A stretch of DNA of 64,000 nucleotides from Lampris incognitus (Eukaryota; Chordata; Actinopteri; Lampriformes; Lampridae): assembly GCF_029633865.1 (NCBI RefSeq), contig NC_079215.1, positions 50,822,897 through 50,886,896 on the forward strand, in the 5' to 3' direction. Below, one piece after another: positions 504-63,189 of this stretch. Each line of letters starts with the position of its first letter. Position 1 is the stretch's first letter. The position numbers and the translations under genes were made by a program. The notes under the pieces are model-generated. The model was not told the DNA's origin. It ran no database searches and worked only from the letters and a program-made list of their open reading frames with translations.

Positions 504-15360
<14,857 letters not shown>

Positions 15361-20287: not shown

Positions 20288-20581
20288 TCAGGTGCCAACG
20301 CTGTCAGTCCTGTGCGAGGGCAGGGCTCTCTGCTGTCTCTGGGTCTGCAGTCTCAGCTGCTGCCACCGCTGCTGCTGGTGCCTCTGATGGTGAGATTGTT
20401 GTTGCGGTCGTTGCTATTGCCTCTGCTGTTGCTGCTGCTGTTGCTGTTGCTGTGGTTGTTGCTGCTGCTGCTGTTGTTGCTGTTGGTGTGTTGCCTGGGT
20501 GAAGGTGCCCTGCTGTTGGAGAGGGAAAGCTGCCTGCAGAATCAGCTGGGTGGACTGGTTACCATGGAGAAGACGGGTACC
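20288..20581 (-). CDS. clock: last clock exon, with early TAG and in-frame extension
   Basis: The exon opens [20 protein letters not shown] and runs into a second polyQ tract, then ...QQRQ-TAG at 20416-20414. The same frame then continues for 41 codons to TGA at 20290-20288 and contains ALPSHRTDSVGT, the counterpart of the HRTDS motif near the end of vertebrate CLOCK. The TAG lies between two CAA codons in a Gln-rich run, so a C-to-T change of a CAG codon explains it. The annotated stop is the TAG; the extension is marked as probable former coding sequence. Confidence 0.88.
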
Positions 20582-23500
20582 CTAGCAACATTACAGTGCA
20601 GCAGCAGGAGAGAACCAAGCAATGCACAGTAATGAGCCTTTTTCCGTTTAGAGCCATCACAACCCATTATAACATATTACCAAATGTAGGAAGAATTCCC
20701 AAGAATGCTCCCAGAAAAAGCTCTTAAAAATCTACTACAGATGAGACACTAGAATCTGACAGTATCTCTGCAAGTCATTTACAGAAACAACTATTTTCAC
20801 GGTTTTTTTTTTAGACAACTCAGTATCACACTAGGAAAGCAGTAATGTCAACCGATTCAAAGACAGAATAGCCTGATGACCTGACAATGCATTCATAAGG
20901 GCTAGAGTAGTGACACTCAATTACGTGCCATGGAGGGCCATGGCGTTTCTCTTCCCAACCCAACACTATACCAGCTGATTTCGCCTATTAATCCCCCTCT
21001 GTCTGGTTGAAGATGTGTTAATCAATGAAACCAGTTGGTGTCGTGCTGGGTTGGAAAGAAAACCCGTAACACATGGCCCTCCATTTGCCTAGTGTTGTAT
21101 TTAAAACCATTTGGTCTTTGCTGCCCTCCATTGTTACCTGTAGGAATTGCTGCTGTTGCTGCTGCCCCTGCTGGCCACTTGATGCCACTACAGTTGTCTG
21201 GTTTTGGGTTTCAGACTGACCTTGGGGTGGCTGGGCAGGTTGCAGGGTCAAAGTCTGGGTCTGCCCTCCCTGCTGAAAGAACAGAAAGATTAAAAAGGCT
21301 GAACTAATCCCCAACCCAAACCCTAAGCACTGAGATGTTCTTGAAAAATCAAGCCCAGAGTACCAACTGCTGTCCAAGCAATGCACTTGTTTCAATCTCA
21401 TTAGAACAGTTTGATTTCCATCCACTAGTAAAGTAGCTCCCAACTTATTCTGAGTGATTTTACTTTTCAATAAAGTTCAGGACTAGGAAGAGAAAATAAG
21501 TTAGGGGAACTTGAGTAACTGCCAACCTTACAATAAGGTTAATGCGACATAAAATTGATTTTTTTGGGGGGACAAAGTGTATTTGAAAACAGCTACAGAA
21601 AAAACAAGTACACAATTTCATCTTCTCTGGCCGTACCTTTTGAGAATGGAGAAACACTGCTTTACCCTTCCATATGTGGTATTCTCCCAGTCAATTTTCT
21701 TCCTCATGTATATAAAAATCATTAATGAATTAAAAACATTTTTAAAACCGCTTATTTATCTATGCAATATTAGCTTCAAATTCAAGCAGGTGCACACATT
21801 TTCTGCTGAGCGCTCCCCCAGTACGTTCATAGTATCCTCTCGGGCATTCACAACTGCTGCATTTTAGTAGTTGTCAACTACTCCCAAAAAGTAGTCAAGT
21901 AGTTGATTAATCGCAGGAGATATTTTTTTTCACCCAATAACAACGATCAAATCTTTTCAAAAAGGTCTCAGGTACAACCATTAAAGAGGTACCTAATGTA
22001 GGCGGGACCAACCTGGGGGTAGATGAAATAGCAGAGTCCTCGATTGGCTCTGACAGGCTGTTTACAAATGAGCCACAATCTGATTGGACTACTCCCCCAG
22101 CAGGCTTGAGCCAGAGCACTTGACTGCAGTAACAATGCGACTGCTGTCTTGCAAATGTTTCGGTTTAACTAGTGAACACTAGCGTCAACTAGTGGTTTTG
22201 ATAGTCAACTATTCTGTGAAACCCCTTGTATCCCCTAATGTTGGGACTGAAAAGCTCCAGTGGAAAAGCCAAGCACTCCACACAAGAACACCTTGAAATG
22301 GATGGGCCAACTGAGAATGGTGCAGATTGTTCACGTGTGTCATATGGCATCTCCCTTACCTGTTGCCCTCCAAATGGGTTGTATGCAGTGACCACTTGTC
22401 CCATGAACATTGAAGTGGGAACCATGACCGCACCACATGCCATCGGAGCAGTTACCAGCTTCGTCACCAGCTGCTGTCCTGCTGGGAACCTAGAGTGGAG
22501 TGAACAAGTGGAGAAGGAAAAAAAGAAATTGAACGAGACAAGCAGAAAAAGGTGTGAGTGACAAAGCTATAAAAAACAAAATGGAAAAAATACTAAATGG
22601 TAGCAAGGTACATAAACAGTGTAAATAGAAACTATAATGTGGCTAATACAGTCAATGGTGCAAAATTACTTCTTTTGGCAACTGGAAACAACATTGTTCT
22701 CACCAACTGTTAACCTGCTGGAGTGTGTGTCTTTGTTTTCCTACTAGTCTATCCTGAAATTATGCGTCACACTTGTTGTGCCCATACCGGATCTGTCGGT
22801 CCTGCGTAAATGTGGCCACAGCTGTGCCTTGCTGTGTGTTGTTCTGTGGCAGGCTGGTGCTGATCTGCAGCAGATTGGTCGGTCCGGGTTGGGAGATCAT
22901 CATGGTGTTGTAGAGCGGTGCGGTCACTGATCCCTGGGCCTGGGCTGACTGCTGAGGCTGACGCTGGGGCTACAAAAGGGCATGGCAGAAGACAAGAGGG
23001 GGAAAAAAATGGAGGGACAGAGAGACAGACAGACAGAGGCAAGAATTGCTTCAATTAAATGGATAGTGAGAGAATTCAAATAATGGGAGGTTTAACTGTT
23101 CACTTGAATACTAGGAATCACTAAAAATAACCCTGTGACCGATTGCTTAAGGTAATTTAGTTTTAAAAAGTCCATTACTAAAAAAAAAAAACTCATTTAA
23201 GACTGTATTGACAGACCAATAAAATGTTGCTGGTGGGGGGGGGGGTGGGAGAGAGAGAGATGCTTAGGGGTGAAGCTGGTGTTGAAACACAAATGTTTTT
23301 AACAATTTCAACTCTATTAAACACAATTTCCTGGGTCGTGGAGCTTTTCCTATCATCTGAACAGGGGGTAGTGTTGATGGGGGGATTAATCTGAACGGTA
23401 CTTGCTTTGTGCAGCTAGAGGAATTTCTGAAAACCTTTTACATACACTGCTCTGCAGACTATCCCCCCCCTTTTTTTTCTCCCCAATTGTACTTGGTCGA

Positions 23501-25572
23501 TTATCCCACCCTCCAAGCCGCTGCTCCACCCCCTCTACCGAGCCGGGGAGGGCTGCAGACTACCACATGCGTCCTCCGATACATGTGGAGTCGCCAGCCG
23601 CTTCTTTTCACCTGACAGTGAGGAGTTTCAACAGGGGGACGTAGCGCATGGGAGGATCACGCTATTACCCCCAGTTCCCCCTCCCCCCCGAACAGGCACC
23701 CCGACCGATCAGAGGAGGCGCTAGTGCAACGACCAGGACACATACCCACATCCGGCTTCCCACCCGTAGACACGGCCAATTGTGTCTGTAGGGATGCCCG
23801 ACCAAGCCGGAGGTAACACGGGGATTCAAACCGGCGATCCTTGTGTTGGTAGTAGGGGTGTCACAAACATTAAATAATCGCCTGATCGCAATTATTTGGC
23901 CTGACCGCGATCATTTTGCATAATCATTAGAATCGTTTCCATTCATTTGTATAGCAACAGCTGAATGAAACTAACAGAAATGTCATATTTCCATCACTAT
24001 TTCCATGTCGTTTTCCACCGTTTGTTGTTTGACTGGCGCTCCTTTAATGACATCATCTTGTCCACCCTGGCACATGAGCGGCAAAAAAAAAAAAAAGCGC
24101 TAACAAACTGTTTATCTTGAGATGCTTATTCTATAATATTCGGTGACAGCATTTCAAAGAGCATCTGTTGACATTAACATCATGGACGTAGTTGCAAAGC
24201 CAAACACCACAGCAGCGCTGTGGGCACATTTAGGCTTTAAGCCAAATGAAAAAGGAGAGCCTAATAACTTGGAGGAGGCAATTTGTCGGATTTGAAGCAA
24301 AAAGGTCACGGTCAAAAGCGTTAATACCATGAATTTAAAACACCATCTACGGATCCACCACCACACCCAATTCGCCGAACTTGGAAAGACAGCCACTGCC
24401 GCAGTAAACGTGACAATACCAGATGGCACACGTTAACAGTACCAGACAGAACCAGATGGCACACGTGAGTGTGACGCGGTATATAGCCAAAGAAATGCAG
24501 CCGTTCAATACAGTTGGAAAAACCAGCATCTAAAGAACTGCTGCAAAAGTTTGACACGCAGTACGAATTACCAGGAAAAACATACACCTCCAAAACTGCA
24601 ATCCCCAATTTATACAACCAAGTGAAGGATGATATCATCATGGATTTAAAAGAAATTGACTTTTACTCAGCCCCTACAGACATGTGGTCAAGCTCAAATA
24701 TGACCCCATACATCAGCTTAACAATACATTACCTCACCACTGACTGGACTCTACAGTCCAAGTGTTAAGAAACAAGATATACACCAGAGAACCACACAGC
24801 TGATACACTTGCAGAATGCCTTCAGTCTGCTTTGGCAGATTGGGCATTAGATGAGCAGAAAGTGTCCTGCAGAACACAGATACTGGTTCTAACATTGTGG
24901 CTACAATAGGCAAACTTGGTTGGCCACGGCTAAATTGATTTGGCCATAATCTCCATTTAGCTGTCAAAAATGCCATAGCAAGTGAGAAGGAATGCACAGC
25001 TCGCGCCTTGGGATTGTGTAGAAGTTTGGTCAACACTTGTGGGTGTGGGTATGTGTCCTGGTCGTTGCACTAGCATCTCCTCTGGTCAGTCAGGGCGCCT
25101 GTTCAGGGGCGGGGGGAGAAACTGGGGAGAATAGCGTGATCCTCCCACACACTACGTCCCTCTGGCGAAACTCCTCACTGCCAGGTGAAAAGAAGCGGCT
25201 GGCGACTCCACATGTATCAGAGGAAGCATGTGGTAGTCTGCAGCCAAACCCAGATTGGCAGTGGGGGTGGAGCAGCGACCAGGATGGCTCAGAAAATAGG
25301 GTAATTGGCCAAGTACAATTGGGGAGAAAAAAAGGGGGAAAAGCCACGATTAAATCGTTAATCGCAATTATTTGTATGACAATTAATCGTCAGCTAAAAT
25401 TTCATGATCCTGACAGCCCTAGTTGGTAGGCAACGGAATAGACCACCACACTACCCAGACGCCCTACTCTGCAGACTATTTAAACCCAGATAACAATGAG
25501 CAATTCTGTGCCTCCAATCAAAGACAAGACAAAGTCGAACATGCGGAAGAGCCTCTACAGAGGTTTGCGTTT

Positions 25573-25628
<56 letters not shown>

Positions 25629-28600
25629 CATACCTGTTGGGTGTTGGGCTGCTGCTGCAGGTTTTGCTGTGTTGAAGCAGGCTGCTGTTGGATGGTGAGC
25701 TGCTGAGTTCCTGTATGGGCGGGATTTAGTGCCGTCTGCTGGACCTGATTGGTCAGTGTTGTTGTCTGCTGAACTGACCCCACTTGAGGCAACTGGACAT
25801 TCATTGTGCCACCCGGCTGCTGCAGGAACATCTGTTACCATGGAGACAACAACATTGTCCAGTCCCATTGCTGCGGGTGTGTTTAATCTTCATCACAAGC
25901 TGTCGTGTGTGTGTGTGTGTGTGTGTGTCTGCGCACACGTGCGTACACACACGCGTGTACACACACGCATATATGTTTTAGTGTTAAAATGGAAGTAGAC
26001 AACTTTTCAACTTTTACCCCCCTAGTGTTTCCAAGTGGTATCATTGTTTGCACCACTGTCGCAAAGACAAACGAATCGCTTTCCATTTATTAGCAGCCTG
26101 GCTACTGTCCAAAGCAAGAAACAACCGTAAGAATCCCAATTTGAACTAGAAACCCTCATCTCAGTGCTATGATAAAGGTAGAGTAAAACATCCGGTAGTG
26201 TTAATAAGTTGGCAGGGTGTGTTACTAATGTCAACTGAAAGTTGGTTTGGAACCCTCTCAAGTCCCGGAGCTCCCTCCATCGAGTGAATGCCTGTCCAAA
26301 GTTCACTCTTGTTTTATCTCGTCTTCCATCTTTCTCCCTCTTCGCCTTCTTTCCTTTCTCCATCAACTGGGTTCTTTTTCTTTTGCTGGGTGGTTTCCAC
26401 AGTTACTTCGGTTGTTCCACCATCTGCCATTGCCTAGCCCACTACTGGGTGGTTGACGCACTTCCTGTGCCATAAATCGATTTGCTGGGGAAAAATTGTG
26501 CCCGGTGAAAGACATAATTGCATAGTGAAAGCAAGACTTATAGAGAACCAATCTTATTGCCGATGGTGTCAATATTCTATAGCCATTACACTGTGCAACC
26601 AGCATTTACTTCATAATGATAATTTAAAGAAAAATTGTCTACTTCCACTTAAGCAGAATGCCTTTCCTATGACTACATGTTTATCAAAATATGGGTCAAA
26701 AGTTTGGGTACTTTTTTATTTTTATTTTGATATACTTTATTAATCCCATGGGGAATTATGCTCTGCATTTAACCCATCCTAGCTGTGCAGCTAGGAGCAG
26801 TGGGCAGCCGCCTTGCAGTGCCCGGGGACCAAATCCAGTTCGTCTTGCCATGCCTCAGTCAGGGGCACAGACGAGAATATTAACCCTAACATGCATGTCT
26901 TTTTTGATGGTGAGGGAATCCAGAGCACCTGGAGAAAACCTACCGCAGACACAGAGAGAACGCGCAAACTCCACACAGAGGATGACCTAGGATGACTCCC
27001 AAAGCTGGACATCCCTGGGATTAATACTCAGGACCTTCTTGCTGTGAGGCGACAGCACTAACCACTTGGCCACCGTGCCGCCCATTACACTTGCTGTAAT
27101 TGTGTTTTATTTCAAAAATAACAATATCTAACCCTTTTGAAAACCAAAGACATGAGTCCAGACATGAGAAAATAAAGCAATGTTAATTCTATTCTTAATT
27201 TGTTTTGGGGTTTTTTTTTTCCTCTTAAAAAGAGTGACAAAAAGAACTGATAAGAGTAGCGTTAAAGTACCGGATCGATAAGCAGTATCAGTAAGAGTAG
27301 TAGTGTGATTAAAATCATAACGATACCCATCCCTAGTACTAGAGAGCTTTGTGTATCAACAACTTTTGACCCATGTAGAGGAAAACTATCTATATCAACC
27401 TTTTCAATCGACTTTCAGGGCCTGTCCAGAGTGGTGAACAATCTTGCTATGGACTCTTGATTTTGCCCCTGTGCTTCTACCGCTGGAACTAAGTGCATTC
27501 TTTGACACCATTGATCACTGTAAACTATTAGACAGAATAAATTGTAATTTGGTGTCTCTGGCTTAGCTCTCTCTTGGCTTAAGTCCTACTTATCTGGAAG
27601 AACACAGTGTGTCTGCTATAATATTATCTCGAAAATCTCTGACGTTAAATATGGCGTACCTCAGGACTCAGTTCTTGGCCGTCTACTTTTCTCTCTTTAT
27701 ATTTCACCCCTTGGCCAAAGTATAAACAGTCATGGAATAAATTTCAATTGCTATGCGGATGATACCCAGCTGTATGTGCCTATAAGGGCTGATGATAGTA
27801 CTCAAATGACTAATTTAGACGCCTGCTTAGCTGCTCTGAAAAATTTGATGTCACTAAATTTCCTGCTTTTCAATTCAGATAAAACTGAGATGCTGGTTGT
27901 TGGCCCTGCTAGACACAGTCACTAATTTGATCAAGTAACAATAAAAACTGACAAATCTGATTTCACAAAGTGTGGCAGCCAAAAATCTTGGCGTTGCGTT
28001 TGATCCCAGCCTTTCCTTTGATAAGCACATTGAAGGAATCACCGACTGCCTTTTTTTCTCATTTACGTAACATAGCTAAAATTCAGTCTTTCCTGTCTAT
28101 GGCTGACGCAAAGACTCTAATACAAGCATTTGTTTCATCCAGACTTAATTACTGTAATGTTTTGTTTTCAGGTCTGCCACATGCTAGTACCAAAAGTTTT
28201 CAGATAGTTCAAAATGTTGCAGCTAGAATCCTAACTCTTCTTCTTCTGCCTTATTCCCTGTTTCTCTGGGTTCACAACAGTGGATTATACAGTTTCCACC
28301 GGTACCCTGTGAGGGCACAGCACCAATGGCAGCCTTGACCAACCCGGTATGCAGCCTCGACCGACCCGGTATGGTCTTGTCAATCCGCATACTGAATTGG
28401 CAAAATTTTTACGTCGGATGCCCTTCCTGACACAACCACTAACCCTATGGACAGGGGCACAGGTAAAGCACTGGATGCCATCCCAGCATTCATGGACTTG
28501 CGCCCATGCCTGTCGCAAGCTAGAATCCTAATCAAAACAAGAAAATTTGACCATATTACACTATATAACTGTTCTCTTCTCTCACGTCTTCTCTCTCTCT

Positions 28601-29421
28601 GAATGGTGTCTTCTCCATTCTCTTCTCCTGTATATAGTGGGATATGAATGGTGTGATGTGAGTTTCCCCCATGTACGGGTAGTCTGTGCTCCTCCCCAGG
28701 TCTCCATGGGGATGGTGGCTGCAACCTGGACACTGCTTGGCATCCACCTCAACACATGTTTTATATAGCTTATAAATCCATATAATTTTTTTATCCTGTT
28801 GCAGTGTTATATCCTTATCTCACTCCAATGTGTGACTAATGTTTTTTCTTGCCTCTTCCATGTATGTGAATGGTGTGATGGGAATCTCTCCTGTGCGCAT
28901 GTGTAGTCTGTCCTCCTGCCAGGTCTACATGATGATGGTGGTGGTTGCGTGGGTCAGGTCCTCGGCTGTTCTGGTGGCATCCGGACACTGCTTGGCATCT
29001 GCCTCATCATATTCTTCATATATCTTATAATTCCATTATAATTCTGTCATCCTCTTTCAATGTTGTATTCTGTAAATTGTGTTTTATTCTGTACACACAA
29101 CATCCATTGCACATCTGTCCATCCCTACCAACTTGTATCATTGTTTAACCTCCCTTGCCCACAATTTTTGCTTTTGCTGTTATTGTGTATTTTATATTGT
29201 GTATTGTTGATCCATGTGAGTCGAACCAAGACAAATTCCTTCTATATGGAAACATGATTGGCCAATAAATCTGAATCTTATGTAAGGAAATTCCTGTTGT
29301 ACCTATCCACAGAGAGGAGTCAGTGCCTTGCTCAAAAGAAAACTTCAGAGGAAGCCATTTGCTGTCACAGGATTCCAGAACACATTACACCATTCTGTTG
29401 CCCTGCCTATTCTAGTGTTAT

Positions 29422-29496
<75 letters not shown>

Positions 29497-30514
29497 ATCT
29501 ATCTCTGTGAGGAAAGTTCGAGTTTTTAACCATCAGAGTGAGGACATTTTGGCTGGTCCTCACTTCTTTAAGGGTCTGTTTTAGGCTTGGGACTTGGGCT
29601 TAAGTTTAAAGTTAGAATTAGGATTAGGTTAAAGTTAAGGTCAAGGTTAGGGTTAGGCTTGTAGCTCTGATGGTTAAGGTTAGGGTTAAGGACTAGGGAA
29701 TGAATTTAGTCAATGAGGGGTCCTCACAAAAATCTAAGTACAAACATGTGTGTGTGTGTATGTGTGCGTGCACATGTAGATGCCCTCCCTGTCCTCTTAC
29801 CTGTATGCCTTGACCCTGAACTCTCTGCAGTTGTTCCTGGATGTGTCTGAGCTCTTCCTGCTGCCGCTGGATGTTGGCCTGGATCATCCTGGTCCTCTGC
29901 TCCAGCTGCTCCTTTAAGTGCTGCATGGCGTTCACTTGGGCTGAAAACTCCATCACCGGCTGTGGGGAGGCAGGCAGGGTTTACAAAACAGGTTAGAGGG
30001 AGGGCTCACATTAGGAAAACAATTAGGAGTTTTCAGTATAAATGTTATCCTTTTACTTTCTCAGCAGTCATCCACCGACTTGTAAGATGGACCAACTTCA
30101 CCAGATTCAAGGGTCTGGTATCAATTTCTTTAAGTGGTAATAATTAACAATTCATTCAATGAAATTAATCATAGCTTACTAAGTAGTGACAACTTGGTCT
30201 GCCATTTGCTGTTTTCAGAATAATAATCAACAGACCGACATCTGTATTTTAAAATGCAAACACTTTCAGAAGCACAGGCTTCATGAACTCAGATTGAACT
30301 GAACAATTGTTTTATCATAGTTGGCGATAGATGGTTACAAAATGGATAGTCATATGAAAATGTTCGAGATTAATTCGGTGAGTCTACTTTGACTAACCTG
30401 TTCCATGTCTGTATGCTTTATTCAATACCTGTATGCTGAATAAAACTTATCTGAACAAAGTGTAACCTGTGTAAGGCTAACCTTTCCTCAACAGCAGATA
30501 GAAAAAAATGCAAC

Positions 30515-30587
<73 letters not shown>

Positions 30588-31391
30588 GGGAAAATAATCT
30601 TGAAAGTTTGTGTAACCAAGCAAGCCTGGACTTGCGGAAAGTTTGCAAACAGTGAACTGGAAATCAACCCAGTTGAATAAAACCCAAAATGCCAATGGTG
30701 ACAATACTCAAGTTGGGTAAATAAAATAAGAGAATGATAAAAAATGGCTAAAAAGCAAATAGGTTGTACTAAAGGAATACTACTAGGCACCACTGAGCAT
30801 CACGCAACTAAACCTTGGTTAAAATTGTGAATATTAGTTGGCACCCTCTTTCTTCTTTCCTTAACTCCTAACTCCCTTGCAAGGTGGATAAAAATGGTGA
30901 AGGTAATAATTTTCGTAATAGTAAGAAAATGTTGACCCTAATCCTAATGAGCAAACCAGAAGCCTCGCAGCTTGGGTAAAAAAAACAAAAAACATTTCAT
31001 CTTCCCTCAGTAGAAGCTGCATTTCACTGGCTTGCTTCCTCAACATGTTTGAAACCCATCTCACTTAATGTGTGAAAAGTAAATATACATCCTCACACTA
31101 TAATAAGATTTAAAATCCCATGTCCCATTTGTCAAGCCAGTTAATAAAGTTAAAGCGCCTTGGCACAGCATACAAATTTGATTAGAGAGAGACAGTCATG
31201 GAGGCGGGGCCTGTGGACTGCAAGTTATCCATTGATGCAGAAATAAACACTACCTGCCCCCCCAGGTAACGCCCGAAAAAAAAGAGGACGGACCAAGTCT
31301 GTACCAACTGTCATGAATTCTCACCTGTACATTTGTTTGCAGTTGCTGTGGTTGTTGTTGCTGTGATTGTTGTTGCTGTTGTTGTTGTTGC

Positions 31392-31426
<35 letters not shown>

Positions 31427-33985
31427 GTGCTGCTGCTGCTGTTGTTGTTGTTGTTGTTGTTGTTGTTGCTGCTGCTGCTGTTGTTGTTGGCCAATTAACC
31501 CTGGAGTAACACTCTGGCCAGTAGTCTGAGAGCTCATAGACTACAAACATTGGAGAGAAAAAAAAGGTCAGTGCTTGAGAATAACAGACAGTAGGGCTGC
31601 ACCACCTGCTTTGCATAGTGGATTAATTATGTGGAACGGTAACATCGTTTTGGCCGTTTTACAGTTTGGAACAAGCCGGCTGGGAATCTACCCACTACAA
31701 GCAACATTTTTCACAATTCTTCCCTGGCTGTTGCACCTCCAGCAAAAAAGCTGGCCCAGAATGCATCGAGTGCACTGAGGCGACATCGGCGGAGAGCAAT
31801 ACAAGATTGACCTGGGGCACAGCAGCCCAAAGTACAAAAACCAAGTCCATAAACAAACAATTGTTGCACATCATTTCTTAGGGAGAACACAATACCCAAA
31901 ATCCATATTTTTTCCTTCAACCAACATGAGAAATAATCAAAACAAGACAAAGGTTTGGTCTGATAATGACTCAATGATAGTCACTCATATCGGGTGTAGT
32001 CAGGACAAGTTGAAGATATAACAACGGGTATTTTGAAACAGCAATATTTAAAAGAAATAAATTGATCCACACTAGTATCCACATTCTAGGTCATATTGTA
32101 GGTGCTCATGGTTGGTAAGTGTTGAAGACTTGGAAGAATCACATCATTTACCCTGTAATACTCTCTTTCTGTACTTTATTTTCTGTCTTTACTGTTATGC
32201 GCTGCAATGCAAGCATAAGACGTTGCAAAAGAATAATGTGAAGTAGTAATTTGTCTTTGGAAGGGGGAGGGGGGGATGCGTTTGAGATTATGTTGACAGG
32301 GGGATGATGTTCATATCAGTGGTAAAAGGAGAGTGTATAAACTGCACCCCCTTTTTTACCCCCCCCCACCCATTTAGTGTAGTTATACATTTATCTTTTT
32401 GGGGGGGGGTTCCCCCTTTTCTCCCAATTGTACTTGGCCAATTACCCCACTCTTCTGAGCCATCCCAGACGCTGCTCCACCCCCTCTGCTGATCCGGGTA
32501 GGGCTGCAGACTACCACGTCTCCTCCGATACATGTGGAGTCGCCAGCTGCTTCTTTTCACCAGACAGTGAGGCGTTTCACCAGGGGGATGTAGCACATGG
32601 GAGGCTCACACTATTCCCCCCAGTTCCCCCTCCCCCCTGAACAGGTGTCCCAACCAACCAGAGGAGGCGTTTTGCTGACTGCCCCTCTAAAACGGTACAG
32701 GTTTTCAATGTAATGTATCCTCAAAAGTGCATCATATGCCGTAAACCATTAAGAAACAGACCACATGACATCATTGTTTTCTAATTCTTTCCACTTTGAC
32801 CAATCAAAGTCTCACCTGACTGCTGATAGATGAGCGACGATGTGATGTCATTTCCACAGTGGAGGCCAACGATTGCCGAGGGGGCGTGGCCGTGTCCATG
32901 TGTAGCTTGGAAGCTGTTGCTATTGAAAAAAAAAAATTACCAATGAGTCACGTCTTGACTAAAAATACCCACATACCATATTCACACAAGGCTTAGTCAT
33001 TGCATTCATATTTAATACCATTGTAACGATGATCCCCTCCAGCTGGTAAGGGTGTGTCAGAAAAGACTGAGGTGGTGCACACAACTAATTGTAGTACCGG
33101 GCAATAAAACGATAGATAATTATCTTGAATAAATTTTTCCCCCATTTTAGGCAGCTCCATTACTTTCAATAATCACTAATTGAATTCATCAGCGTGTTGA
33201 GGAATGATAACAGGACAGCTGATCAGTTTTATAACATAATCTCCTTACCATTAATATCTGCATTCCCACTACAAGTGACCATAAAAAACATTTGTGATAC
33301 CAGAGCTTTTATTCGCAACTTCCGTATTCATTTAAAAAAAAAGCTTGATGGAAAAGCAGCTACAGTTACCTACCAGACAAAAGCTGTGAAACCAGAGATG
33401 GCTGACTGTCTCTGTCTTCCTTTTAGCTTGTGAAGTTATCGTTTGAAAAGCACATCTGTGTTTTCCAAACGATAACTGCACAATTTTTTTACACATTTTT
33501 TTACAACATTTGCCACTTTTGTAAATAGGATTTGTAAAAGTATCTAGCATCTGATTTTACATTTAAGATTTTACTCCATCAATTACAGACAACTACAACA
33601 CAAACATCTATTGTGTTTGCTGAAGGAGTAGGTAGCCAAATCTTTTAAACAAAATTTTGTTGTTTTATTAACCTATTATTATTTTAAGATGGCTGCTATG
33701 TAAAAACAAACAAAAAAAGAAGGATAAAAGTACTAAATTAGGGTTAATTGTCTCGAATTTACTCTTCATTGTTCTGCATCAATTGCAGTAATCATGCACA
33801 GATTTGGGACATAACATAATCTGGCATTCAAATTTTCATTCAGGGAGCAAAATTAAACCTTTAAATTTGACAGAAACAGGGATTTTGTAAAAAAAAAAAA
33901 AAACAACTTATGATGCATTATGGGAATGGTAATAACATTTTCAGCCATATAGCCCAGTACTAGCTACATCTGTGCATAAGTGTCT

Positions 33986-34045
<60 letters not shown>

Positions 34046-37000
34046 TTACAGGTGCAGGTGTTGTCAGAGACATGCGAGGAGGACTTGCGGGAGCTGCGTG
34101 AGGAGGTAGAGGGCGTATGGCTGCGGTCAAAGCGCTCCAGCGCCTCCTTCAGGCTGGATGTGTTCAGCTGGGACTCTGAACCAGAGTCCTGGCTCTGAAA
34201 ACATCCAATCAAGGATAAAAAAAATATAAATACAAGATAAACTGCCTCGTTTCCCTAAAACACTTATATTTTTAAAGCAACTTCTTATGGCTAGTGTATT
34301 GTGAGGATGACAAGGAGAATTGTGTGACATTACACAACAAAGGCCTTCAGAGAGAATTCAAACAACTACCTCACAAGAACATGACATGTGCCAAAGCTTG
34401 CTATGTCACTAGGAAACATCATTTCATAGTTGACTTTAACTAGTTAACCTAAGGGGTTAATTTAACTGGGATAACACTCTTATGGAGTGCAAGAGTGAAC
34501 AATTACAGTCCTAAATATTACAATCCTAAACATTCTTCAATCTGTGAGAAAATTCCAAGCATAGTTTAAATTCTGACACAACACCCTCCCTTGAACCCTT
34601 CTTGATGCAGTTATAGATATAAGCTGCTTCCCTTTACTTTAGGTTTGCTCAGTAAACAATATTGATCATCAGGGATTTTCAGATGGTGTCGCAAATAAGA
34701 TGTTAACAGGCAGTATTGACTTGTTGACAGCAGTAAATGGATAATAGATTTGAAAAAAAAACGCTGTCTCCTCCGCCTATTGCATGTGACGTTCATTATT
34801 TCCAAGAGCTATAACAGCTTTATGTTTAAGTTGTCTAAGGGACTGACTGGAAAATAATAATAATTCTATAGCCCCAAACAACCGAGTTTTCATAATTTTC
34901 CATCTGCCTACATATTGTAATTTTCTTGTTTGCTGTGATAATGATTTGACAAATTTCGTACTTTGTCCACAGTAACCTCTGGAGGAGACTCTTCAATGCC
35001 CATCTCTCTGCGCTGTTCTGCCCTCACCTCTGCATAGCTGGAAACACACACACACAAAAAAAAAAAAAGGATTGGTGAGAGAAAAATGATAATTCAGCAC
35101 CAACAGTGGCTAAAAGGAGTCCCACATAGATAGACACAGTAATCTAAGTGGACGTGAGGGACCTATGGTCATCACACAGACTGCTGTCACGTTGTCTGCC
35201 AATATCTAAACAATGCTCAGGATTATAAGGTAACTTCTTGAGGAGCACTTATTGGTAAAAAGGAACAGAAGTTTAAGATCTGGTGACCTTACCTGACAAC
35301 AGTGTGCGTACAAACAATGAACTCAGGCCTGGAGTTCCACTGGTGGTAGGTGATATAGTAGTGGGTTTGGAGCCAGATCCATTGTTGACCCTTAGTCAGG
35401 AAACGGTAATAGCACGACTTCCCTTTACCAAACTGCATCACTGGAAAGGAACATGACAGATTATTATAAAACAACAGCGGCGTTAAATCCAACAACCAGG
35501 CAAAGACGTTTTACAAAGTTGTTTGTTTTAGATGTTTTAGATCCAGATCCATCCATATTTCAAGTCCATGGAAAAATGCATAGGAGTGTAAAAAGACTAC
35601 CTCCAACTACATCCAGCAGTATTTGAGGACAATTTTGCTTTCGAAAAGTAAGAAAAAAAGTTTAACCATCTCTGGTAATACCAAGTTTAGCATAATTCAA
35701 TATCACCATTTCACGTGAGTCCCTGATGACTCTATCCTCCGATGTTATTCTGTTCTGGGATATCATGGCAGTGGTGATTGTGTATATTTTATCTATTTCT
35801 TAAGATGTAAACAGAAGCACTGACAGGGTTGAACACAACATTTCTATCTGGACATGTAAAAATAAATGAATCTTGTTGAAGCCACATCACAGGCTCGGTC
35901 AGGTCCAGCTTTGAGAGGAATAACAGGTTTGGAAGACGCAACATCTGCACCATGCCAGCACAATGAAGTCATTAAATAAACAAAATAAATGCCCCTTGTG
36001 TCATCTAGACAGATGGGCCATGTTTTAATTAATGTATTTTTGCTAGCTGGTATAGCTGATATGAGGTGCACTGTATTTACAATGCCTTAACAATCCAATA
36101 ACAATAATAATAATAACAATAACAACAACAATAATAATAATAATAGCTCAATAATCCGGGTTAAAAAAAAAATCTAAGAAAGTTGAATCAGTTCATCTGG
36201 ACACATTTATTGAGAGAAACGTATCATCACTCATCTAAGTGACCTCTTTAGTCTAAACAGACCTCTTTAGACTGCAGGTATCCCCACCCTTATATACAAT
36301 ACAGTGGCATAACGACCAAAACCAACGACCGGTTTCATACGCAAATAGGTGTGACCATTAACTAGAGTTACAATGGCCATGTGTACTATTCACAGAGGAT
36401 TCGTGAATGTTTGCAATCACAGCATTGTAAGTTGGCGACAGACGTACTCTTAGCCCCCCGGTTCAGGGATGGTCGTTTCCGTTTCACATAAATGGCCACA
36501 GTTTGACTCTCATCATCCACTGGAACACAAATTAGGAGCCATCAGAACGCTGTAACACCGAGCTGACAACATCCCCACCGACACAGTGGCCGGGGAAGGG
36601 GAGAAATCCCACATTAAACAGGCCCTGGTTAAGTGTGGTTATCCTAACCGGGCATTTGTCGAAGCCAGGAAGACGCCCAAACAGTGCACCAGCCAAATCG
36701 AAGAGAGAAGGACAACAGCTTCCAAAGCGTAAACCAGTGGCGATTCTGTATGTGGCGGGAGTGTTGGAAAAGTCGAGATGCGTATTTTCCAAACATCGCG
36801 TCCATTTATTGACAGAAATGTTTCATCACTCATCTAAGTGACCTCTTCAGTCTAAACTGACTGCAGGTATATCAAACTGAGACTCACTGCATCTCAGTTG
36901 CTTTCAAACCCCAAAAAACGCTGCGCCAAAAATAGTTCCACCGCAAGGATCGGGTCCCCCGACACAAACAGAGCAATATAGTGTACACTGTTAAGTGCCA

Positions 37001-40000
37001 GGAGGACTTCTTTTTTTTTTTTCCCTCCCTTTTCTCCCCAATTGTACTTGGCCAATCACCCCACTCTCCGAGCTGTCCCAGTCGCTGCTCCACCCCCTCT
37101 GCCGATCCGGGTAGGGCTGCAGACTACCACATGCCTCCTCTGATACATGTGGAGTCGCCAGCCGCTTCTTTTCACCTGACAGTGAGGAGTTTTGTTAGAG
37201 GGATGAAGGGTCACGCTATCCCCCCCCCCCCCAAACAGGCACCTCAACCAACCAGAAGAGAGGGAGAGGAGGCACTAGTGCAGCGATCAGAACACATACC
37301 CACACCTGGCTTCCCACCCAGAAGACACGGTCAATTTTGTCTGTAGGGATGCTCGACCAAGCCGGAGGTAACACAGGGATTCGAACAGGCGATCCCCGAG
37401 TTGGTAGCCAATGGATTGCCATGCTACTCGGAAGCCCAAGTGCCGAGAGGATTGCTGTGACTTGTACACTGGGGAAACTAAACAGACACTGGCCAAGAGA
37501 ATGGCACAACACAGAAGAGCTAACATGTCAGGCCAGGACTCCGCAGTCTACACCCATCTACAGGCTAGTGACCACTCTATTAAGGATAAGGATGTGCGCA
37601 TCCTCGATAGGGAGGAACACTAGTTTGAATGGGGAGTCAAAGTAGCCATTTATGTGAAGAGGGAACAACCATCCCTGAACCGAGGGGGGTGGGGCTAAGA
37701 GTACATCTGTCATCATCTTACAATGCTGTGATTGCAGCTATTCCCAAATCCTCTATTAACAGTACACATGGCCATTGAAATTCTAGTTTATGGTCACGCC
37801 CTATTTGTATATGAGACTGGTCGTTGTTTTCAGTCGTTATGCAACTGTATTATTTATAAGGGTGGGGATACCTGCAGTCAGTTTAGACTGAGGAGGTCAC
37901 TTAGATGAGTGATGAAACATTTCTCTCAATAAACGTGTCTAGATGAACTGATTCAACCTTCTGACTGTATTTACAATTTACAAATATCCTCCCACAAGTG
38001 ACTGACTTGCTGTCAATCAAACCTGTCAAACAAACATTCCCACACTTCTCAAGAGCACTCCTTGATGTGATGAATTTCAAAATCTAGTCAATGGAAGTAC
38101 TGGTACTGGTAAAAGTGTGTGTGTGGGTTTGTTTTTTTTTTTTATTTGTAGTACATTCATGCGTTTTCCAGACAATTTCGGATAATGTCTGACAACACTT
38201 TGAGGGGTCTGTAAATTTTCAGCCAAAAAAAAAAAAAAAAAGTTTAAACATTTTCACAGGGTTCTTGTATTCATGTAGAGCGATATAATATTTCCAACCA
38301 CTTGAGAGAGTGTATGCATCAGTCAGAGGAGGACTCACGGTGTTCATGACACTTCGCTAGTGTTTCCAAGTCGTCCACATGGTAATAGTCATACCCCGAT
38401 GTTCCCAGAACTTCAAAAGGCAGGTAACCTATGATTGGTGGAGCCCTGACAGGAGGAAATGTTTTTTGTTTTTTTTTAAACCCACGCAGAGGAGAAAAAT
38501 ATAGCAGGTCAAAACGACACAAAACTGGATCTCACAAACCAATAGTAGTGACCTACATCAAGTCTGTAGCGCTTCAACTTTAATTTAAATGTTTACCTAT
38601 CAGTAGACACCAGCATATTTAATAGCACATTAACAAAACGGTTTGTCTGTAAATCCTGCAAGGTCCAACAGGAAGTTGAATGTATGTTTACATATGTACT
38701 TACCTGTGGTCTAGGAAAAGGAACTTCCATTCGAGGCTATGTCTAGATGTGAACTCTTCATTGGGTTCCTCTACTGTGCACATCTCCTGAAGAGTAAGGC
38801 ACACAGAAGAAAACAATGCGTTTACAAACCATTTTATGTCTAAAAGAACAAATGCCAAGCCACCCGAGAGCAGTCTCTTGAAGCCAGATTATTGAGTTAG
38901 TGAGCTAACTTTAGGTTTAAGCCAAGGTTTTTTATTTTTTGGCCAATGTGAGTAAATTCTATGCCGGGTAAAGGGCCATGGCAACAGAAACATGATTTTT
39001 GCTCAAACATCTGTGCATTCACCAGTGTGTGTTCGTTCGCTTGACGCTGATGCACGTAGGCGTTTTTCCTACATACTTGCTCGTAACGCTCAGATGTGCC
39101 AAAGACAGCAGCTATCATGCTTACAAAACCAAAGTTTATACACGAAAAGCCAAAGAAATTTATAAGCATACAAGAAATATGAACCAAACGACAAAGTAGA
39201 GCACCTAAAACTTTGTACATCCATTTTGTTAAACAAAGCTGTAGTGCTGCATTGTTTTGCATCGAGCAATCAATGAATATGGAGAATTCCAGGTTTGCAT
39301 TAAACCGCAATACAAGTTCACATGCTGCATGAGAGGCTGATGAAGTTTCACTCAAAAGTACCAGATATTCATGTGCTACCAATTGGTATGACCCATACAT
39401 GCCTATGGGTCGTATCGGTATGACAAATAGGTCACGTTAGGTGTGCTACTGAGATTTCAAAAGGGCATACATAGCGGGGGGGTTCAGCCCAGTGTATCTC
39501 GACAAGACTCACCCACAACTGCTTGTAATTGGACAAAGGTTAAATTTAGGCAGGAAAGGTTAGGAAGCAAGGGCAAGTGACGGTTGCCAGATAGATGGCT
39601 GACTTGACTGACCAATCCCAGTATTACAAGTGTGTCTTGCCCAAACCTGGGGCAGTGGGAAAAAAACCAAAACAAACATGTATGCACATCTGCGTCTCTG
39701 CAAGCCTTTGCGAGCCATGGTTACCACCCAGAGACAGCTATTTTGCATCAAAGTGCAGACATTTACATGCACCTTTGCAGAAACATGTTTTGGCTCTTAC
39801 ATTAAACAACTTGCCTGACCCACAGCAGTTATGTTCATGATGTTTCAACATAAAAACATCCAAGGATTCAAACATATACAAACAACTCCCTTTTATAAAT
39901 CGATCTCAGGAACTTGCGGGACTTGAGTGCACATATGTGAACAAAGATAAATGCTAGTTTTCCTTTCTAGTCAGTTATTTCTTCATTCTGCATGAATATT

Positions 40001-43000
40001 ATATAGATAAATTCAGATTTTTGAACCCCACCACAAAAACCTTATTGCTCATAGTCTCTGGAAAGAGATCAACTGTTTGCAACCTATTGAATTTCTTCAA
40101 AAAAATACAATATAGTGTAATACCAATTTCTGCCGCACACATTATGTTGATGGATAATTAAGGTTTCCTTTTTATATTCTAGTTCTTCATCATCTTTTTA
40201 GAATAAAATCTTTTTTAATTTAAGTACTTGCATTTGTATTAAGTATTTTATCCTGTTGGCTGGTATTTTTGTATTTAGTTCAGTATTTATGTAGATTTTT
40301 TTTTTAATTTATTTCTGATTTTCCCCTTTTTTCTCCCAATTTAGTGGCCAATCGATCCCTATTTTAGTTCAAACACCCACCCTCGTACTGCATGCGTTCG
40401 CCAACTGCATCTCTTCGGCCGGCAGTCTCGAAGGAGACGCCTCGCCACTTTCATGACAAGGCGACTGCACGCTGAACCACTGCTTTTTCTGACACACAGA
40501 GAAGCATTTATGTGACGAACACAAGCCGACTTCGCCCCCCCTCCCGAAGACAGCGTTGCCAATTATTGCTGCTTCATCGAGTCCGGCCATAGTCGGATCT
40601 GACGAGACTGGGGCGCGAACCCCGGGCCCCAGTGGGCAACTGCATCGACACAAAGCCGATGCTTAGACCACTACACCACCGCGGACCCCGTATTTATGTA
40701 GATTTTTAAAATTGGGATAACATAATTAAACTGCACACGTTCCACAGTAAAAAAAAAAAGTTGAATAAAGACTCTCAGGTACACAGATAACAAGGTTCCT
40801 TTACTGTCGAGGTTGTTTACAAACCATTCTGCTTTTTCTGATGTGTTTTATTGGGGGTTTTTTTGGGGGGAGGGAGTTCCCCCTTTTTCTCCCCAACTGT
40901 ACTTGGCTAATTACCCCATTCTTGCGAGCCGTCCCGGTTGCTGCTCCACCCCCTCTGCCGATCCGGGGAGGGCTGCAGACTACCACATGCGTCCTCCGAT
41001 ACATGTGGAGTTGCCAGCCGCTTCTTTTCACCTGACAGTGAGGAGTTTTGCCAGGGGGACGTAGCAAGTGGGAGGATCACGCTATTCCCCCCAGTTCCCC
41101 CTCAACCCCTGAACAGGTGCCCCGACCGACCAGAGGAGGCGCTAGTGTAGCAACCAGGACACATACCTACATCCAGCTTCCCGCCTGCAGACACAACTAA
41201 TTATACGAATACACTGCTATGCTACCCGGACGCCTCTGATGCGTTTGTTAAGACAGACACTCCATAGGCAAGTCTTTGCATCCTTCTGTAACCTTGCATT
41301 GTTAATCTAACTTGTCATATCCATGCACATTAATGACTGGGCGGTGATAAGACTATTAATTTACTCTTTTACACTATCTGCAATTTCCTCCACTGAAGCA
41401 AGGAATAACTCTACTCACTAAGTTGTGTGTACAGTTATGTGTGTGTGTGTGTGTGTGTGTATATATCTGTGCATGTGTGTGTGTGTGTGTGTGCGCATAT
41501 GTTACCTTGATAAACTGAGGCTTGGCTAGCCGGACTGTGGCTACAAAACAGACCTGGTCATCAAAGGCGGGCTGTAACGATCGCTGTAACACCCCTGCCA
41601 AACCATTCCTGGTCACATTGGGAACTATGGGGCAGAAAAGGGGCAAAATGAAATGGATGTTTTCAACTCAAAGTCTCGACCAAATGAAAAACTATGATTA
41701 AAAAAAAAAATCGTGCCTCAGATCAATTAGTTTATGTTTTGAAACTACATACCATTACTGAGTGACTTGAAGTTACCAATGAACTTCACATATTCATAAA
41801 CGGGGGGCTCCTTTGGGTTAATGGTCCCTCGCAGCATGTGACAGCAGAACTCCATCTGGTTTTTCGCTGTAGACAAAATGAAAGTAATTACAGGATTCAT
41901 ACTGTGAAAAAAAAACTTCCAGCTATATTTGGCATTTTTGAATTTACTTATGGGTAATATTGTTTCATGTGTCCAAAATTATTTCATGGCCCTGGCATCG
42001 GACCAAGACAAACAACTGATAAAGCATTGCAAAGCTACTATTTTTCTGTGGAAAAGCTTCCCTTCGCCACCCCCCATCAGCTCAGAAAGACAAAATATGA
42101 ACACAGCACCACTGTAATCGTCTTACTGGTTTATACTGGTTTTCCATAGCGACAGATATCCCAGTGATCTAAACAGGAGGTTTTTCTAATGCTGGCCATC
42201 ACCTATTCTATGCTTTTTTCTTAATAAATGATTTTTATGCTTTTACTACAGTGCAACCTCTCATCCTATAGTCTTACAAACACCTAACAGGGTAACAAAA
42301 GGGCAAGAAGATATCTAGAGAACAGCAAATACTGCGAAAATTGGTATGTTGGTACTGACTCTTAAGGTAATCCGTGCCAAGGCTCTCAGGGACAGTGGGA
42401 TGTGTGGACAGAGCCTTGTACACGTCAGAGTGCTCCCCCAGTGGCAAGAAGTTTAACAAGTTCTGGTCCACCAGGTCCGCCTAAGGGTGCAAACACAGAT
42501 AAAAAATAAGTACACGGCGATGGCAAACAGACTTATTTTAACTTAGCCTCACGAATGACCCGCCTTGACCTGTTTCTATCACACAACAGGTGACTAACTC
42601 ATACAACACCGGAGCAAGACTCGCTGTTACTCACCGGGAGGTGCTCTAGCAACGAGGTGACACTCTCAGAGACATAGAGGATGTTACCATCAGTCATTAT
42701 TGCTATGAAAAAACCATCCAGAGCCTGACAAAAAGAAAACAATAGGACACACTTAAATCTGGGGTTTATAGAAGTATAATAAGTTGGAGAATGCCATCAA
42801 TTTCTTTTGTTGAATCAAGAGGTATCTTAACCTTTAAATAGTATCTAAAAATAAAACTGAATTAATATTTCTGAACCATGCAGACTTTTCTTTTAACTAT
42901 GAAAAAAGTCAGATAAAACTGAGTGGCTTGGAGTTAGAGCTGTCTACAGCCCTGGCTGCAAAATTTACAGCAATAGTAAAGCAACAGTGGCCATCATAAT

Positions 43001-45851
43001 TAAACTGGTGCCCGAAAGAGAGTAAGAGGTATCAGCGGTGAGGCTTCCTACCTCCAGCATAAGTTGGGTGAACTCCTCATTGCTCAGGAATGGAGGCTTC
43101 CAGTCCTGTCTGATCTCGCTGGACTCTGACTGGGCAGCTATCTCTGATAGAGGATGGACAGAGGAAGAATGTGTAAAGTTCAACTCACTTGTAATGTAAC
43201 AGGCACCGCAACAAAGAAACTATTAACGTAAGGAAATAAAAGCACAAGACAAAACAGAGCAATAAAATAACATAGAAAAACAATTCAGTTATGGGTCAAG
43301 TGTTAAATGATAATAAAAACATGATGCACACGGTTCACTACATGAGCTATAAGGACAAGAGAAAATAAACCCACAGAACAGTGTTCAGAGGGTTAAGAGA
43401 TAAACATAAATGCAACCTCCAAAAGAACAAATTCATTTCACGAAGCAGTTAATCTAAACACAGGAAATGAGGTAAAGAGGTGTGAGCCCTGACCTTTGTG
43501 TTTGCACAGGAAGTCGATGCTTTTCTGCAAGATGGTGGACTTGTCCATCTTCCTGGTGTTGCCCGGCAACATCGTGCCGAGCTCCTTGATGAGGACATTG
43601 AACTGGTCTCTCCGTTTCTTCTCGGACTTATTACGGGACACGCTGCAATTCAAATTTCAAGTACAAATTCAATATTTACCCCCAACAAAATGTATTTTCC
43701 CCAATTAATTTTTCAGTAAACTTTTCCTCCTACTAACGTTTGTCAAAACACTCTACTTTGACAAAACGCTGCTTTGACGTCTACATTATATGTAAGATTC
43801 CAGCCGTTATGTGATTTTGTGAATGACTCCAAAAATGCTGCATTGAGACTGCAGGGTAGTATAGATGTTGAGTATAACACATGAATGACCAGCTCCTTCT
43901 CACAAGGAACTTAAGGGTTAGTTAGTAAAAACATTTTTCAATGTTATTTTAGATTAATTCAACATTAGTCTGACCCATCGGATGTAAACCGCATAAACCC
44001 GCCATTGTCCAACCATTTCAGTCAGACTTCTCCTTCCCTTCCGCTATCTGCGTGTTACCGTTTTCAAAGTCCCCGTCGCTACGTGAAACAACAACCTCCG
44101 AGCTAGCAACCTACACGCTGAAAATGACAAGTTCCCCACCTGACACTATTTTACAAGGGCACCGTCGTTGCATCCTGGGGTTAGCGCCGCCAAAGACGAT
44201 TGTGATTGGTTTGAAGGGATACAAAGAAGCCAGAGCGAGGCGCTAAAACGAAGTGTGGAGTTCGGTCTGGCTATGCGAGACTAATTAAACATGAGTAAAG
44301 GCTGAACTGGAGCCAGCGTCTGCAATCACTACATCACTCTTTGCGAACGGATTTGCTGAGCTTATGTGGCCAATAGTGTAATTAGCATCACTCAAGAGGG
44401 TTCATCTATCCATTTATCTTACCGTTTAGCTTTGTCCTTCTCATCCTCTTCCATCAACCCATCAAAAATGCTACAATCTTCCCTGGGGGATGAAGAGACA
44501 GATAGAAATATTTACAGACTCACTGAGTACCAAGCGCACTTTTCGTGTGTGTACTTTTCTCAGCAGCCTGAAAGCTGATGTGAATTTTATGTAGACCAAT
44601 GATGAACTAAGGCACTCTACCAGATGAAGATTAAAATGTCTTGATTTTTTTTTGGTCATGTTCAAAATCAAACCACTGAACTAATAAAAAAAAACCACCT
44701 TTGGTGCCCACATTAGGGACTCCATCAAGGATTCACATCCCATTTGTGGTTTCACTTATTTTAATGTATCAGTTTTGAATATGACCAATAAAAAAAGCAA
44801 TTATAAACTATTTGCTTAAAGAGAAAATTCACACATTTTCAACTTTATCTTTGTCTATCTGTAACAGGGATAGCACATGAAAAATAACTGCAGTTGTTCC
44901 TGATCATTTCTGCATCTCTGGAGGCAGTGAATGAGATTTTTTTCTGGCCACCGAGTGACGTATTGTGACATCAGTTGGTGGCCAGAAAAACTACTGCCTA
45001 GAAGGTTTTTTTTTAATCTACTCTAAACATGCTGTTCAAAAAATACATCTTGACTAAGCTACATTTCCGATGGTGGAAATGACGTCCCACAACACTAGCA
45101 CACAAGATTTTATGTACGACAATACAGAAGCTTATGCGTAATGCATTCTGGTACATGTAGGCGCTGTGGGAAAGACTGTGTGAGCAGGACAACACCGATT
45201 ACTCCCGTCAATATTATATGCAGAGGGGACTTAATTGCTTCAACTGACTGCATTGCTCATGAGTACTAATCGCACATCCATAAAACCATCGGTGAAATTT
45301 CCCTTTAGGTGCCTTGGTTCATCTTCAGTCTGAATGCACGGTTAAAATCCCTGTCAAGGAGAGCGGTCCAAAGTTTTTTCTTTACTTGTAAACTCAAGAA
45401 GCCCTCCGAGTTGTTTATTATGTATGTTTTTTTTTCTATTTTAGCAGAAATGCGTTGTTTATAATACCAGATGGCCAGTTACTACAGAAGAAGATTCTTA
45501 CATGCAAGGAGGTTTATTTTTGGGTCAGACCAAATGAAAAAAAAAGAGAGGTAAGGAATGAACTGGAAGAGAGAAGGAATGGATTGTGCTTGCCACGGAA
45601 GTTATGACTGTATTGGTGACGCTGGCCTGTTTTAAGGGTGTGCACGTGTGTCTGCGCATGAGTGCATTTGAGTGTGTTGTAAAATACCCAATGCTACTTG
45701 TCATGATGGCTGTTGATCAGGGCTGTAGCTGCAGTGATTGGCTCTTTAGTCGTGAGGTAGGCATTTGGAAAAGCACCTGGGTGGGGGAGGAAAGGTCACT
45801 GGATAAGATGTCATTCCCAATACATCTACAATTGCATGTTAGCAGAGACAT

Positions 45852-60558: not shown

Positions 60559-61288
60559 AAACAAATTAATTTCATTTTTTCCACTATTTTTCTTATTTTA
60601 TTCCATTTTTACTTTCCATCATTACTATATTTTTTTTACTCATTGACAAGGTAAGTCTGAGTAAGGCATACTCTCATGTGTAAAAAAAGTTTATTAATGA
60701 GATTGCATAGATTGAGCACCAGAGAGGGGGCAGGATATTATAAGTAGGAACTTCCTCCTGCTCCTTTTCGAACATGTAATCGTTTGTTTGTTTGCTGTGT
60801 TTAAAATAATTTCATTTTGCTTTTTCTATGTTTGAAATAAAGACCTACCCACCTACCTACCTACCGACCTAATGTATTATAACTTCTTGCCAAGAGATGG
60901 CGTCAAAGCCCGTAACGTGCAAGGGATCTTTAGTGGTCTAATATATTGCCTGACGAGACTAACACAAATTACATATTCGGTTAGTCCTGTCAAAGTATAT
61001 TAGTTAAAAAAAATCAGAGAAACTCAAGTTGTATTTTTTTGGTTTCTTTTGTTTTACCTTTGCGAATATATACACAACCAACATAATATTTGAATCCCTT
61101 TTTCCGTTGGCATTATAATGGGACGGCTGAGCGGCACCGTACCTGGCGCCAAAATTCAAGTTCGAAAACATTACGCTTGTCAGTGCTAGTGTCATTACTA
61201 GCTTTCCGGCTAAAGGCCCTTTCAGAAATTTTGTTTTCGGTTTGAAATTCCCAAATTCTTACATTTTGGGAGGAAAAGCTGGCCAGGG

Positions 61289-62971
61289 ATGCACATCAAA
61301 TCTGTTATTATCGAGGGATTCAAATCCTATGCACAGAGGACAGAGATCAACGGATTTGATCCACTATTCAACGCGATCACCGGACTGAATGGCAGCGGAA
61401 AATCCAACATTTTGGACTCGATATGCTTTCTTTTAGGCATAAGCAATCTTACTCAGGTAAGCGCCTTCCTACATATTAACCTGTTAGAAAGGCTGAATCG
61501 TGATAGCTAATCACATTACTGTTGTTCTTCGGTGCTGTAAACCAGTGGTTCTCAAGGTGGGGTCCGCGAAATAATTTGCTATAAATTATGCTTCATAATT
61601 AAAAAGCGCATATCTACAGATGGGGACCATTTGCGTGCATAAGTGGTATTAGTATGAAACCGAAATGTGTTTCTGTTTATCACTGTGAAACAGGTCTGAA
61701 GTATTTAGGCTGGAACGTTTTAGAATACAAACAGTTCCAGCATCTGAGAGTACAAATGGTTGCAAGCATGTGTTTAATCAGTGTTACGATTATGAGGGGG
61801 TCCTTGGAAAAGTTTCTCCTCGGTAAGGGGTCCATGGCCCCAAAAAGTTTGAGAGCCTCTGCTATAAACAACCATGACACCGCTGAGTAGTTAAACCGTT
61901 CGTTTGCAACGTTTTATATCCTCTTACTTTATCACAATATCCTGAAATTACATCGCACAAATGCATTCTCATGAAATGTGGATGTCTCTCTTTCAAATAA
62001 AGGTACGAGCCTCCAATCTCCAGGATTTGGTGTACAAAAATGGGCAGGCTGGTATCACCAAGGCCACAGTGTCCATTACGTTTGATAACTCCAATAAAAG
62101 TCAGAGCCCTTTTGGGTTTGAAACTCATGATGAGATTACAATCACCAGACAGGTTGGCAAAACTACATCAATAAGCACGATTTATAAAATATATGTGAGT
62201 TCTGTCACAGGGCACATAAAATGGATATTTTATAGTGTCATAGTAATATTCATTGCTTTTTCCCCCTTCTAAGGTGGTGCTTGGTGGCAGAAATAAGTAC
62301 CTAATCAATGGGGTTAATGCCAACAACACCAGGGTACAGGACCTGTTCTGCTCTGTTGGCCTCAATGTCAACAACCCGCATTTCCTTATCATGCAGGTCA
62401 GAATGCCATTTGTCACCATATGACATTGTGATTGCAATCATATAGGACAAATGGATCCCAATCATATGACAACTGGTTCTTTCTTGTTGTGATCCTAATC
62501 ATGTCTTTAATGTGCACAGAGACTTACTGAGTTTCATGCGGTTTCTGTATTTTAGGGAAGGATCACCAAGGTCCTAAATATGAAGCCACCAGAGGTAAAA
62601 CATACAATCTACATTCTCACCCTCGTCTTTTCTACCTTTCAATTTGTTGGTAGTCCTCATTTTCTCTCCTCAGATTCTTTCCATGATTGAGGAGGCAGCC
62701 GGCACCAGGATGTATGAGTGCAAGAAGATCACTGCTCAGAAAACTATTGAGAAAAAGGAGGCCAAGCTGAATGAGATTCAGACTGTATGTCCAACTTCCT
62801 AATTGATACTATATTGTCACTTGTGTTTCTTCTATGTTAATTCAGCAGTGATAAGTCACTACAAGGGGAAAATTTCCACCACTGTTTAAGATATTTTTAT
62901 AATTTCTGCCCATTTTTCTCCTATAGATTTTGGATGAAGAAATTACACCCACCATGTTGAAGTTAAAAGAG
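61289..62971 (+). CDS. smc2: SMC2, condensin core ATPase (5' part; continues past window)
   Basis: Structural maintenance of chromosomes 2 pairs with SMC4 in condensin I and II and compacts mitotic chromosomes. Six exons are read: 61289-61456, 62003-62152, 62274-62396, 62556-62594, 62674-62784 and 62927-62971, all in phase 0. The start ATG opens [20 protein letters not shown]; the Walker A motif GLNGSGKSN is at residues 32-40. Then come [54 protein letters not shown] and [18 protein letters not shown], and the coiled coil begins in [12 protein letters not shown]. This is near-identical to human SMC2. The donor of exon 2 (CAG|gttggc) is weaker than the rest. The rest of the gene lies off the right edge; the current intron contains an L2/CR1 LINE. 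Confidence 0.96.
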
Positions 62972-63064: not shown

Positions 63065-63189
63065 GGTTAGGCCTGAACATTTTGATTCTTCGAAGAAAGT
63101 TGAATCAGTTCATCTGGCCATCTTGATGCATGCTCAATAATCCAAGTAAGAAAATCAAAGAAGGTTGAATCAGTTCATCTGGATACAGC
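63065..63189. mobile_element. Penelope-like terminal fragments, tandem
   Basis: AGTTGAATCAGTTCATCTGG occurs twice (about 63097 and 63160), followed by ATACAGCGTTTATTG. Same terminal sequence as at 36-38 kb and 51.7 kb. Confidence 0.65.

Follow-up and report, generated by a model that had tools for sequence, protein, structure and literature searches.

The window analysed here, a stretch of 64,000 nucleotides of Lampris incognitus, is part of C6 in a genome of 1.48 Gb and 537 contigs, and it contains on the minus strand a gene of 20 located coding exons (44482-20288; Table 1). When joined, the exons give a frame of 907 codons, in which a TAG is the sole internal stop and a TGA is the last codon, with 20 AG acceptors and 19 GT donors at the splice sites; the exon borders were picked by eye from the sequence, and the located set starts downstream of the first coding exon, which bears the ATG. 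The solved CLOCK chains are the best match to the N-terminal 409 residues, with an E value of 1.4e-221, and HLH, PAS and PAS_11 score above the cut-off in the product. By its frame, chain matches and domains this is a real clock gene, as a sequence-only reading of the window had claimed. With the TAG as its single internal stop, a frame of 907 codons over 20 exons with usable splice sites resembles neither a general pseudogene nor a poorly assembled region; a general pseudogene is rejected, since the 20 located exons share one open frame except for the TAG.

Table 1. Positions of the clock gene, of the parts of its last exon and of the neighbouring gene pieces in the window.
Feature	Position	Strand	Remarks
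Clock gene, 20 located coding exons, without the ATG exon	20288..44482	-	Joined frame; CLOCK chains, E 1.4e-221; HLH, PAS
Last coding exon of clock	20288..20581	-	98 codons, counting TAG and TGA; ...GCTAG acceptor ahead of 20581; in frame with previous exon; 69/84 first nt as in ohnolog
In-frame TAG within polyglutamine tract	20414..20416	-	Codon 56/98 of the exon; codon 865/907 of the joined frame
Polyglutamine tract upstream of the stop	20417..20485	-	CAA/CAG in 21/23 codons
Gln-rich stretch after the stop	20324..20413	-	CAA/CAG in 14/30 codons; no counterpart in ohnolog
LPSHRTDS block, homologous to ohnolog LASHRADS	20300..20323	-	19/24 nt identical; codon positions 1/2/3: 6, 8, 5 of 8
VGT and the closing TGA; 4-nt frameshift possible against ohnolog end LSDRSTTQPH	20288..20299	-	MAFFT gap; weak
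Pieces of tyrosine kinase downstream of clock, resembling kit by eye	8038-11175	+	Pfam cut-off passed by two of the three
SMC-type gene pieces, SMC2-like by eye	61214-62269	+	Pfam comparison

Among the five kinase and SMC-type pieces around the gene, three pass the Pfam cut-off for a named family and two fall below it. Tight linkage of clock to kita is reported in PMC3161366, and, based on this linkage and on the kinase pieces nearby, the window gene is probably clocka (Clock1), with the kit identity of the kinase being assigned by eye. One PAS exon, used as a query against the genome, had five matches: the window gene, a copy on C11 and a copy on C3 at 98% each, together with two weak ones at 37-39%. 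The C3 copy is the clock ohnolog (sister copy) of the window gene, and the 79.2 kb surrounding it gave no match to the kinase or SMC pieces. The C11 gene, which has 98% identity to the window clock over one PAS exon and 36-96% over 13 pieces detected with E values of at most 1, is more distant over the other exons and looks like a putative NPAS2. Its tail was tried as a comparator: an HRTDS-like pattern sought on its strand in the first 36 kb gave one match, HRTES, lying shortly past a stop codon, which was judged by eye to be unrelated. When the genome was searched for the last exon, one exact copy was found, and among the best 40 of 161 candidates scored no second near-identical exon copy or haplotype copy was seen in other contigs. 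Prokaryote contigs were also scanned for fish sequence that could supply relatives, and none of the 323 pattern matches was a relative.

In the last exon (20581-20288, minus strand) the codons CAG AGG CAA TAG CAA CGA are read directly, with the TAG at 20416-20414. Beyond it the frame continues as ...ALPSHRTDSVGT until the TGA at 20290-20288, which closes 41 open codons with SHRTDSV among them; the premature TAG and the intact codons after it are thus present just as the sequence-only reading described them. Its explanation of the stop, a single C-to-T change of a glutamine codon, stands as the simplest origin; we infer that step and an ancestral CAG from the context, and the ohnolog tract has 10 Gln with no codon opposite the TAG. 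Since the TAG precedes it, the HRTDS-type tail is outside the main frame of the window clock, and the ohnolog has SHRADS at its end. Such a C-terminal tail is often conserved in vertebrate CLOCK and is not a defining feature; the window clock is a truncated CLOCK member rather than a non-member. Splicing around the stop was judged unlikely by eye, the upstream GT sites lying in or before a conserved protein segment.

The last exon of the C3 ohnolog is open, reading Q10-LASHRADSLSDRSTTQPH* with a normal end; the reading of the ohnolog frame covers this last exon. The first 84 nt of the window exon match it at 69 nt, with 26, 27 and 16 of 28 matches at the first, second and third codon positions, respectively, and the block CTGCCCTCGCACAGGACTGACAGC, which codes for LPSHRTDS after the stop, matches it at 19 of 24 nt; in both the pre-stop and the post-stop blocks the third positions carry more mismatches. 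The highest ungapped match over 24 nt in the 3' flank is 13/24. The protein score of the tail against the ohnolog tail was equalled by 145 of 20000 codon shuffles and by 73 of 20000 base shuffles, and a chance explanation of the similarity appears unlikely. From these comparisons, the frame past the TAG ends in a genuine CLOCK tail, with a coding pattern kept since the duplication. As to homology of the 41-codon extension, on which the sequence-only reading depends, it holds, when checked against the sister gene of the same genome only, for the last conserved eight codons, and it does not hold for the 30 codons between the stop and the block, which are without counterpart. Because the similarity after the stop is about the same as that before it, and the mismatches in both lean to the third positions, the stop probably arose long after the duplication, and the post-stop block has probably been under translation during most of the interval.

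By contrast, if the truncation were old and fixed in the lineage, the sequence after the stop would have been left untranslated and drifting. The smaller number of Gln codons after the stop and a possible shift of 4 nt in the last codons are what such a loss could leave behind; the conservation of the block with its third-position bias, as compared with at most 13/24 in the 3' flank, makes it very improbable. Conservation of the block also weighs against the nonsense allele favoured below, since it is not expected under a stop fixed long ago and would equally follow from an assembly error or from readthrough. Non-Gln codons make up 16 of the 30 codons after the stop versus 2 of the 23 before it (Fisher p 0.001), and this excess suggests weak constraint beyond the tract, in keeping with relaxed selection, although a mixed composition of greater age would give the same picture and the Gln-poorer stretch may be old and functional instead of decayed. 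After HRTDS the frame of the window ends as VGT*, whereas the ohnolog runs on as LSDRSTTQPH; MAFFT opens a 4-nt gap there and then pairs CTGACCGC with CTGATCGC, an end alignment that 337 of 5000 shuffles matched, and a frameshift at the very end of the window clock is only suggestive.

The individual could also have a sense codon at this site, with the TAG arising from a miscall or mis-collapse in the CAG/CAA repeat. The site is indeed within a repetitive tract and the tail block is conserved as though translation continues, but neither a stop nor a frame break occurs elsewhere in the 907-codon frame, even in the longer CAA/CAG tract at 31540-31325. Moreover, errors in repeats are mostly of length, substitution being less usual, and the TAG would be a substitution, so that such a consensus error is considered unlikely.

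A further case, absent from the sequence-only reading, is partial readthrough of the UAG, in which insertion of glutamine or some other residue would yield a long CLOCK beside the short one. The stop lies in the context CAA UAG CAA CGA, where CAACGA fits CARNBA, which after UAG is a readthrough context in yeast, and misses CARYYA, at one of six positions; in a human-cell test of CARYYA all six positions appeared to matter (both from PMC4132726). The likeness to these known UAG-CARYYA and UAG-CARNBA stops is seen here from the sequence alone. In the joined frame including its post-stop part, CARNBA follows 7 of the 183 Gln codons, or 4 of the 114 CAG codons, which together with the coding pattern retained in the post-stop block speaks for readthrough. 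The motif was, however, looked up once the site was known, and it is not rare in the window: CARTAGCARNBA was found once in the 64 kb with 0.52 expected, and 41 of 100 shuffles contain one. The RNA after the stop gives no signal of structure, its fold being ordinary (z 0.37), the post-stop stretch is less pure in Gln, and the very end is possibly frameshifted. Partial readthrough is therefore held to be quite improbable, and a functional leaky stop, by which use of the tail would be a translational setting in one ohnolog with the long form carrying HRTDS, slightly more so.

The explanation that we favour, and regard as likely, is that one of the two clock ohnologs carries a genuine nonsense allele, the TAG of its terminal exon, as read from one assembled haplotype. 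The TAG would have been created inside an expanded polyglutamine tract by a base substitution, C to T in a CAG being the simplest, presumably in that direction and probably recently. Single-base changes could produce a stop upstream of the TAG in 376 ways, and C>T in a Gln codon accounts for 169 of them, so that the Gln codons constitute a large nonsense target. Stops in a terminal exon are not expected to elicit nonsense-mediated decay, and the mRNA, where expressed, should thus escape it. The product would be a CLOCK that is complete except for its end: it would stop in the polyglutamine tract and miss about 41 residues, the conserved L[PA]SHR[TA]DS tail among them. If the allele is real, it leaves a core circadian activator naturally truncated at its C-terminus next to an open-tailed duplicate in the same animal, so that the role of the tail could be compared without mutagenesis, and it illustrates how broad a target a glutamine-rich tract offers to nonsense changes; were it segregating, it would be a ready marker for timing traits. 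The finding is modest and, as a sequence event, ordinary, with the last few percent of one duplicated clock protein being lost.

The serine of HRTDS, which probably corresponds to Ser845 of mouse CLOCK, would fall in the removed tail. The AKT consensus includes an Arg five residues before the serine; both fish copies have Ser there instead, and the consensus is thus incomplete even in the ohnolog. In mammals AKT phosphorylates CLOCK at Ser845, which is reported to affect nuclear entry and the resetting of the clock (PMC11216939 and PMC13042505). The literature, as covered by titles and the beginnings of abstracts, with most subscription journals lying outside the search, yielded no fish clock gene whose tail is interrupted by a nonsense codon. 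A close known system is that of the polyglutamine length variants of salmonid Clock1a and Clock1b, which belong to the same gene family and in which the Gln tract varies between duplicated clock genes; in PMC3161366 those variants are length changes in the tract of exon 15, whereas here a nonsense codon lies in another tract, in the last exon. By eye, the salmonid exon 15 tract probably corresponds to the window exon at 31540-31325.

Note also that this exon (31540-31325, minus strand), with its longer CAA/CAG tract, is open throughout and has about 47 Gln in its last 55 residues, together with His, Ser, Pro and others, and that it resembles, by eye, the published salmonid Clock1b primer adjoining the variable PolyQ exon. 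The two ohnologs appear to differ by an intron, the C3 ohnolog (L002, 1759-2094, minus strand) having one open exon where the window clock has two, preceding the last exon. Finally, we note that on the plus strand of the window the open stretches at 24137-24436, 27548-28340 and 63104-63998 are, by eye, like hAT/BED transposase and LINE reverse transcriptase, and that the one at 37408-37645 is, likewise by eye, like a GIY-YIG type retroelement domain.
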